Origin: an uncultured Alphaproteobacteria bacterium
Lineage (GTDB): Bacteria; Pseudomonadota; Alphaproteobacteria; RF32; CAG-239
Length of the DNA stretch: 33,676 bases
Reading direction: 5' to 3'
Assembly: GCA_947630965.1 (NCBI GenBank)
Contig: CANRJO010000010.1
Span: 1 to 33,676 of the forward strand
Positions 7,290 to 8,648 of the stretch are shown piece by piece (the first letter of the stretch is position 1; every line of letters starts with the position of its first letter). The notes below the pieces were generated by a model. That model had not been told where the DNA came from. It saw only the letters and a list, made by a program, of their open reading frames with translations, and made no database searches. The position numbers and the translations under genes were made by a program.

Positions 7290-7366
7290 GTACCCGTAGC
7301 TCAATTGGATAGAGTGTCGGCCTCCGACGCCGAAGGTTGTGGGTTCGATCCCCGCCGGGTACGCCA
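7290..7366 (+). tRNA. tRNA-Arg (anticodon CCG)
   Basis: A complete 77-nt cloverleaf can be drawn. The acceptor GTACCCG pairs with CGGGTAC, followed by discriminator G and encoded CCA. The D-stem is GCTC/GAGT, and the anticodon stem TCGGC/GCCGA encloses the loop CTCCGAC with anticodon CCG. The T-arm is GTGGG-TTCGATC-CCCGC. It reads CGG arginine codons. Confidence 0.97.
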
Positions 7367-7403
7367 CTAAAAAAAGTGACTTAACGTCACTTTTTTTAGT
7401 GGC
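7363..7403 (+). terminator. Long perfect terminator hairpin that includes the tRNA 3' end
   Basis: Bases 7363-7380 pair perfectly with 7386-7403 (18 bp, 5-nt loop TTAAC). The inner part, GTGAC/GTCAC followed by TTTTTTT, is a standard intrinsic terminator for the tRNA. The outer part continues through the mature GCCA end of the tRNA, so the primary transcript could sequester its own CCA. Confidence 0.8.
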
Positions 7404-7416
7404 GGATTACGCGATT

Positions 7417-7463
7417 GTTAGCTTGCGAGGTGCCGGCAGGCGCCGAGGCAAGCGTTACAGAGC
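7417..7463 (+). repeat. REP-like hairpin, GTTAGC...GCGTTACAGAGC type
   Basis: GCTTGC (7421-7426) pairs with GCAAGC (7448-7453), with a GC-rich inner stem around GGCA. A second full copy of this element lies in inverted orientation at 8587-8630, sharing both arms and the tail GCGTTACAGAGC. It is non-coding. Confidence 0.7.
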
Positions 7464-7466
7464 GGT

Positions 7467-7514
7467 GACCGAAGCGAGTTAGTTTTGCGATTAACGCAAA
7501 ACTTACGAGCAAGA
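7467..7514 (+). repeat. Interspersed GTTAG-hairpin-CTTAC repeat, copy 2
   Basis: The flanks CCGAAGCGAGTTAG and CTTACGAGCAAGA match the copy at 145-192. The centre here is a perfect hairpin, TTTTGCG-ATTAA-CGCAAAA (7483-7501). Confidence 0.7.
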
Positions 7515-7675: not shown

Positions 7676-7725
7676 CCGCCTTGGCGGATTACGCGATTGT
7701 TAGCTTGCGAGGTGCCGGCCTCCTC

Positions 7726-7846: not shown

Positions 7847-7875
7847 TTGACTTTCCGTCTGAGATTAAATAGAGT
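7847..7875 (+). promoter_or_regulatory. Sigma70-type promoter of the candidate small RNA
   Basis: TTGACT (7847-7852) and TAGAGT (7870-7875) are separated by 17 bp. The predicted start is near 7882. The nearest start codon is more than 200 bases away, so the promoter points at an RNA gene or a long leader. Confidence 0.6.
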
Positions 7876-7881
7876 CAGGAC

Positions 7882-8067
7882 AAGCAGAAATTCTGCCTAG
7901 GGCGTCAAAACCCTTTATCTGTTTGGTCGTTTGCACACGACCTTAAATTGTGCCGACTTCTTGTCTTTGGACGGATGTCGGTGAATAAGGCTCAGCCAAA
8001 TAAGCCGAGCCGTCTAAACAGATACGGTTTTGAACATCCGCCCGCTTCTTAAGGAGCGGCTTTTTTT
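7882..8067 (+). ncRNA. Candidate structured small RNA, cloverleaf-like, family unknown
   Basis: The interval runs about 186 nt from the predicted start to the end of a terminator. Its ends are held by a long stem: GGGCG (7900-7904) with CGCCC (8039-8043), TCAAAACC (7905-7912) with GGTTTTGA (8026-8033), and TATCTGTTT (7916-7924) with AAACAGATA (8016-8024). Inside are three hairpins, closed by GGTCG/CGACC (7925-7942), CCGAC/GTCGG (7953-7981) and GGCTC/GAGCC (7989-8011). I could not match it to tmRNA, 6S RNA, SRP RNA, RNase P RNA or a riboswitch that I know. It has no ORF of note. It could instead be a leader of the gene at 8109, because the closing stem shares bases 8042-8043 with the terminator. 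Confidence 0.55.
8042..8067 (+). terminator. Terminator of the candidate small RNA
   Basis: CCGCTTC (8042-8048) pairs with GGAGCGG (8053-8059), one G-T pair, loop TTAA, followed by seven T residues (8061-8067). Confidence 0.75.
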
Positions 8068-8108
8068 CTTTTAAAGGATTGCTAAACTTGGGCTGATAGG
8101 AAGGTTCC

Positions 8109-8573
8109 ATGCGTATGCATAAAATTTGCGCTTTTTTCGGACACCGAGATGTTGTTCTTTCTGGTTATTATGAACATGTGCTTGAAAAGGTTTGCCGAAA
8201 ACTTATCGATGAACAAGGGGTTTATGAATTTTGGTTCACCAATAACGGTGAATGTGATTTTTATGCACGGCGTATTTTGCTTGATATGAAAGAGAATAAT
8301 TATCCTGAAATTGATGTCTGCATTATGCCGGCTTATAATCTTTCCGATGGTTTGTTTGATGTGCTTTCCGATAAATATCAGCTCTTATTTCCGGGAGAGC
8401 TTTACCATGTTCCTTGGAAAGCGGCTATTGTCAAGCGCAATGAGTACATGGTCAAAAATGCCGATATCATTCTTTGTTATATCACACGGCATTACGGCGG
8501 GGCATATAAAGCTGTGAAATTGGCAGAAAAGCTTAAGAAAAAAGTCATTAATATCGCTGAACTGGAGCTTTAA
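8109..8573 (+). CDS. SLOG-superfamily protein (DUF1273-like)
   Basis: This 154-aa cytosolic protein begins with a strand leading to CAFFGHR (residues 7-13), the hallmark of DUF1273/YpsA-like SLOG proteins, which bind nucleotide-type ligands through a Rossmann-like fold. The second conserved region, NADIILCYITRHYGGAYKA, matches the usual ligand-binding GG segment. Exact function is unknown. AGGAAGG lies 4 bases ahead of ATG 8109; an in-frame ATG 8115 has 10-base spacing and is an equally plausible start. It sits 41 bases downstream of the small-RNA terminator, so it may be expressed by read-through or by its own promoter. Confidence 0.7.
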   Translation: MRMHKICAFFGHRDVVLSGYYEHVLEKVCRKLIDEQGVYEFWFTNNGECDFYARRILLDMKENNYPEIDVCIMPAYNLSDGLFDVLSDKYQLLFPGELYHVPWKAAIVKRNEYMVKNADIILCYITRHYGGAYKAVKLAEKLKKKVINIAELEL

Positions 8574-8586
8574 GAGGATTCTTCTT

Positions 8587-8630
8587 GCTCTGTAACGCTT
8601 GCATCGGCGCTTATCAGCGCCTCGCAAGTT
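8587..8630 (-). repeat. REP-like hairpin, inverted copy
   Basis: CTTGC (8598-8602) pairs with GCAAG (8624-8628), and GGCGCT (8606-8611) with AGCGCC (8616-8621). Read on the minus strand it matches the element at 7417-7463, including the tail GCGTTACAGAGC. It separates the convergent SLOG and secreted-protein A genes and could act as a transcript end stabiliser. Confidence 0.65.
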
Positions 8631-8648
8631 CACATTCGCGTGATTTTT

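Follow-up and report, generated by a model that had tools for sequence, protein, structure and literature searches.

The window, which is the whole stretch of 33,676 nucleotides analysed here, belongs to an uncultured alphaproteobacterium. Its forward strand contains a candidate structured RNA with a promoter-like site at one end and an intrinsic terminator at the other, followed by a gene encoding a YpsA/DprA-like SLOG protein (Table 1). Both the 17-bp-spaced promoter and the terminator proposed in the first-pass annotation were located by scan. Promoter-like sites in general are weakly above chance, both in the scan and across copies of the RNA, where matches of at least 9/12 occur at the equivalent place in 38% of copies versus 21% of shuffles.

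Upstream of the RNA, a tRNA-Arg (CCG) gene is situated at 7290-7366, ahead of a region containing an intergenic repeat that occurs genome-wide, with 42 matches at 81-100% identity. Copies of this repeat are found at 7400-7480, at 7682-7719 before the RNA and, in inverted orientation, at 8587-8644 right after the SLOG gene. The RNA and the SLOG gene are thus flanked, as a unit, by repeat copies in opposite orientations.

Table 1. Elements of the candidate leader and its gene, in window positions
Position	Strand	Feature	Basis
7847-7875	+	Promoter-like sigma-70 site TTGACT-17-TAGAGT (putative function)	Scan, 9/12
7884-7896	+	Variable 5' hairpin GCAGA-AAT-TCTGC	MFE
7899-7914	+	Hairpin AGGG-CGUCAAAA-CCCU; loop partner 8026-8033	97.4% paired, 2 pairs changed on both sides
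7905-7912	+	P1, 5' strand UCAAAACC; long-range partner 8026-8033	97.7% of cells paired, 4 pairs changed on both sides
7916-7924	+	P3, 5' strand UAUCUGUUU; partner 8016-8024	7/8 pairs covary; pairing in 69% of cells only, in the alignment used
7925-7942	+	Hairpin P4	95.5% paired, 5/6 pairs covary
7933-7936 with 7950-7953	+	Pseudoknot PK1, formed by P4 loop bases	All pairs covary
7953-7981	+	Hairpin P5 (CCGAC/GUCGG), antiterminator strand in loop	99.7% paired, one-sided changes only
7969-7978	+	Putative antiterminator strand GGACGGAUGU; partner 8034-8043 (PK2)	92.8% paired
7985-8012	+	Near-invariant core AAUAAGGCU..GCCAAAUAAGCCGAGCC, candidate sensing core	Alignment A2, pair counts
7989-7991/7995-7997	+	Small core hairpin, inside 7985-8012	
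8016-8033	+	3' strand of P3 and P1	
8034-8043	+	ACAUCCGCCC, common to PK2 and the terminator 5' arm	
8042-8067	+	Intrinsic terminator CCGC-UUCUUAAGGA-GCGG and U run; stem 8042-8059	Scan; kept with covariation
8073-8108	+	Spacer with degenerate family RBS copy AAAGGATT, motif TTGGGCTGATAGG and RBS GGAAGG	
8109-8573	+	YpsA/DprA-like SLOG protein, presumed regulated gene	Pfam, AlphaFold, PDB

The minimum free energy of the RNA 7882-8067 is -71.1 kcal/mol, compared with -47.0 +/- 4.1 for shuffled sequences (z -5.9), and none of 200 shuffles was as good. Nested energy models have no room for the pseudoknotted state, and the structure of minimum energy that they give is the alternative fold. The window RNA does not match any Rfam family at the gathering threshold, and a relaxed search gave none above threshold; no match was observed to 6S RNA, tmRNA, SRP RNA, RNase P or the Rfam riboswitch families. 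The earlier description of a structured RNA outside the known families agrees with this result, apart from a distant kinship with sRNA-Xcc1 (RF02221) that it had missed.

The covarying copies in related genomes to which the first-pass annotation had looked for support were found: at least 121 distinct copies were gathered from gut alphaproteobacteria. A pattern scan of GTDB yielded at least 89 stretches, almost all from records whose titles name gut alphaproteobacteria, e.g. Azospirillum sp. CAG:239; one listed stretch is titled Gastranaerophilales, perhaps owing to a binning error. Model R1, built from 78 of the 121 copies, matches 141 of 152 genomes in the window's family and, in a sample of the class, 30 of 385. 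The window's genome contains five close copies together with diverged ones, and R1 has 14 matches there at E below 1e-5. Some loci (L139, L196, L269) carry tandem RNAs, two per locus and a few hundred bases apart. A short form of about 135 nt with GGGGAG/CTCCCC has five occurrences in the window's genome (L206, L207, L208, L209), and these RNAs precede near-identical proteins of 83-87 amino acids starting with MKIKNKDLTLYIKK or MKLKNKDLTLYIKK. The alphaproteobacterial core pattern was not found among the viral contigs of IMG/VR, whereas phages do carry the Xcc1-type form.

The helices were analysed in alignment A2, comprising 78 of the 121 distinct copies. The named helices are paired in 91% of cells, against 29-44% for slid controls, over which they have an advantage since they were chosen with the same sequences in view. 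Pairs changed on both sides number 22, versus 15.5 in shuffles, and the covariation exceeds that of all shuffles and slid controls. The predicted elements supported by the alignment are P1, P3, P4, P5, the core hairpin, P7, the P4-loop pseudoknot and PK2. As the variation in P5 is only one-sided, this hairpin is supported by pairing, not by compensation. The long closing stem proposed initially covaries in two parts, 7905-7912/8026-8033 and 7916-7924/8016-8024, and its three internal hairpins are present at 7925-7942, 7953-7981 and 7989-8011. The pseudoknots, the conserved 5' hairpin at 7884-7896, the many copies and the distant known relative go beyond that proposal. By eye, a hairpin of differing sequence occurs at the 7884-7896 place in most copies. 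The AGGG/CCCU hairpin and P1 have two bases in common; either the two replace each other, or they form a pseudoknot with one end shortened.

PK2 and the terminator are mutually exclusive, because PK2 occupies the 5' arm of the latter. Competition between the closing stem and the terminator had been noted for bases 8042-8043; it is real and larger than claimed, involving 8034-8043 and their pairing with 7969-7978. In the window, A7971 of PK2 stands opposite C8041. The canonical copies have little variation in PK2, and thus its covariation support there comes from few changes. In diverged copies, both strands differ entirely in sequence and still complement each other, as in TGGCCGGAGG/CCTCCGGCCA, TGACTGGGAG/CTCCCAGTCA and TGGCAGGAAG/CTTCCTGCCA. 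The complement between the antiterminator and terminator strands of diverged copies is 7.2 nt within the same locus, versus 5.25 nt when strands are swapped between loci (p 4e-9; the true significance must be lower, because the loci are related and the p values here and below treat them as independent).

Most copies also have GGATGTT directly 5' of the start codon, complementary to AACATCC adjoining the terminator. This RBS complement is at least 6 nt long in 69% of 110 copies, versus 7% of shuffles. In the window copy, exceptionally, it spans only 4 nt. Among the SLOG leaders alone, the difference between own and swapped strands is weak (PK2, 7.0 versus 6.2 nt; RBS, 6.0 versus 5.4 nt). Judged by sequence, these RNAs have the exclusive structures reaching a terminator or RBS that are typical of riboswitches, the RBS part being degenerate in the window.

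The start of a same-strand ORF was observed within 80 nt in 111 of the 121 copies. The largest groups of downstream genes encode PEGA lipoproteins, autotransporters, other lipoproteins and outer-membrane barrels; others encode pilins, glycosyltransferases, an EcoRI-type methylase and an Mrr-type nuclease. The compact free-standing RNA gene of the first-pass annotation is less likely because so many copies precede such an ORF. The other possibility that it raised, control of the SLOG gene at 8109 by a switch, is better supported: R1 finds a same-strand RNA ending just upstream of the SLOG homologue in 25 of 30 matched loci. The position before genes on the same strand that is expected of riboswitches is seen both in the family at large and in the SLOG subset. 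Two more SLOG loci have a diverged RNA by eye, giving 27 of 30, and the remainder include fragments.

Of 126 genomes in the window's family, 25 encode homologues of the SLOG protein. The Pfam family YpsA is recognised in 17 of 23 homologues (best 8.8e-9), the AlphaFold model has pLDDT 94.4, and the best PDB matches are YpsA 2nx2 and DprA. PADLOC gave no match for this protein. The SLOG leaders fall into several subtypes, and the window spacer motif TTGGGCTGATAGG resembles a GGGCTGA..GG stretch 3' of other SLOG leaders. In the sole other genome of the genus, the SLOG gene is preceded by an adhesin-type leader and a partial signal peptide. To judge from these two genomes, leaders seem to have been exchanged in front of the gene. 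The last 56 residues of the protein recur at 100% identity at a second site in the window's genome (G000:C11:32737-32904, L288); this segment may be a fragment, a recent duplication or an assembly effect.

The best weak Rfam match of the window RNA is RF02221, with 26.9 bits against a gathering score of 53. Diverged copies score 51.7 (the best relative), 40.6, 35.2 and 34.8 bits, and RF02221 matches two copies in the window's genome (E 8.8e-6 and 9.1e-5). Conversely, R1 matches genuine sRNA-Xcc1 loci over the whole length of the model (best E 8e-6). The matches in both directions indicate common descent.

Genuine sRNA-Xcc1 loci were taken as the 30 above the RF02221 gathering score. By eye, the loop of a 5' hairpin complements the 3' strand in nearly all of them. 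In these loci the 3' strand is complementary to its own upstream half over 8.6 nt, versus 6.0 nt when swapped (p 4e-15), and to its own RBS region over 6.9 nt, versus 5.3 nt (p 5e-10). Visual inspection revealed neither a U run 3' of the Xcc1 elements nor a conserved self-cleavage motif as the source of the 88-nt end. With no U run visible, control in these loci would act mainly on translation. The downstream genes include SymE and the antirepressors Bro-N, KilA-N, P22_AR_N and Rha. In phages Rac-SA53 and Aaphi23 the RNA is located shortly before ant, in Vibrio phage VPBES it carries the annotation sRNA-Xcc1, and a near match occurs in 158 of 5426 E. coli genomes.

A 2011 paper reportedly called sRNA-Xcc1 trans-acting. 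The RNA measures 88 nt by RACE and about 100 nt by Northern blotting (PMC2996969), has many reads and low ribosome coverage in EHEC (PMC5331693), was noted upstream of symE in integron cassettes (PMC12444791), and figures as a small RNA in work on Xylella vesicles (PMC12189769). The literature searched, with most subscription journals outside it, contained no description of a 5' half or of cis action. sRNA-Xcc1 itself is known, but it appears to be no more than the back half of a switch in front of genes, and it is this full-length, cis-acting reading that would be new.

Taken together, these comparisons indicate that the window RNA is probably a cis-acting riboswitch-like leader of the SLOG gene at 8109 and kin of sRNA-Xcc1. 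The sequences display a conserved predicted fold with several pseudoknots before genes, in which the P5-loop strand and the terminator compete for 8034-8043. If a putative signal stabilised the pseudoknotted fold, the P5 loop would hold 8034-8043, the terminator would be blocked, and transcription would continue; if not, the terminator would form and transcription would stop. We infer that PK2 is the on state and the terminator the off state, that the balance is set by a signal, and that this signal is a small molecule. In most relatives the freed AACAUCC strand might also mask the ribosome-binding site, which would place termination and translation under joint control, the second part being degenerate in the window copy. 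As for c-di-GMP, a guessed signal, the two GGDEF domains in the window's genome carry no weight either way.

That the same switch is set instead by a protein, a trans RNA or temperature appears rather unlikely. No result here points to a ligand, and the phage and integron contexts would be in keeping with a partner that is a protein or an RNA; however, the near-invariant and little-paired core resembles ligand-binding cores, if by analogy only. One could also suppose a free-standing trans-acting sRNA, whose exposed AACAUCC would bind other mRNAs at their ribosome-binding sites while the neighbouring gene is incidental. Its own promoter and terminator would yield an RNA of about 186 nt, the AACAUCC strand is common to several copies per genome, and sRNA-Xcc1 was detected as the short RNA with the ribosome coverage cited above. 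However, the neighbouring same-strand genes fit cis action, as does the RBS complementarity of the Xcc1 loci, which is matched within each single locus, and the RNA is kept upstream of SLOG homologues, which makes the trans-acting sRNA improbable. A recombination element, e.g. a folded DNA site spreading promoters with genes and folding as RNA only secondarily, could account for the varied genes, the apparent leader exchange and the flanking inverted repeats, but it is very improbable, as the strand-consistent terminator, the RBS complementarity and the gene spacing are what characterises an RNA leader.

Returning to the riboswitch-like leader, we consider it quite possible, as a tentative proposal, that sRNA-Xcc1 and the window RNA form one undescribed riboswitch class that is widespread among Pseudomonadota and their phages, responding to a small signal and controlling prophage antirepressors, the SymE toxin, SLOG proteins and, in the gut alphaproteobacteria, numerous cell-surface genes. 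If so, an RNA annotated as a trans-acting sRNA and discussed as a virulence RNA of Xanthomonas and Xylella would be mostly the back half of a cis switch; phage antirepressors and integron symE would be under RNA-level control, open to testing; and surface genes of an uncultured gut lineage would share their control.

The conserved core, the exclusive helices and the position before genes are shared with riboswitches that have terminator or RBS-sequestering platforms. Unlike established riboswitches, the window RNA has no Rfam riboswitch match and its ligand binding is hypothetical. Antirepressor genes of phages are also controlled by the C4 antisense RNA (RF01695), and the Xcc1-type RNA is tied to such genes as well. 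However, C4 is an antisense RNA, and RF01695 has no match here. The closest resemblance is to sRNA-Xcc1, whose 87-nt model aligns to the 3' half of the window RNA only, its closing stem corresponding to PK2 and its two inner hairpins to the core hairpin and P7. In contrast to the free small RNA of Rfam and the literature, the alphaproteobacterial form is a candidate leader, and it differs in its 5' half, its terminator and its target genes.
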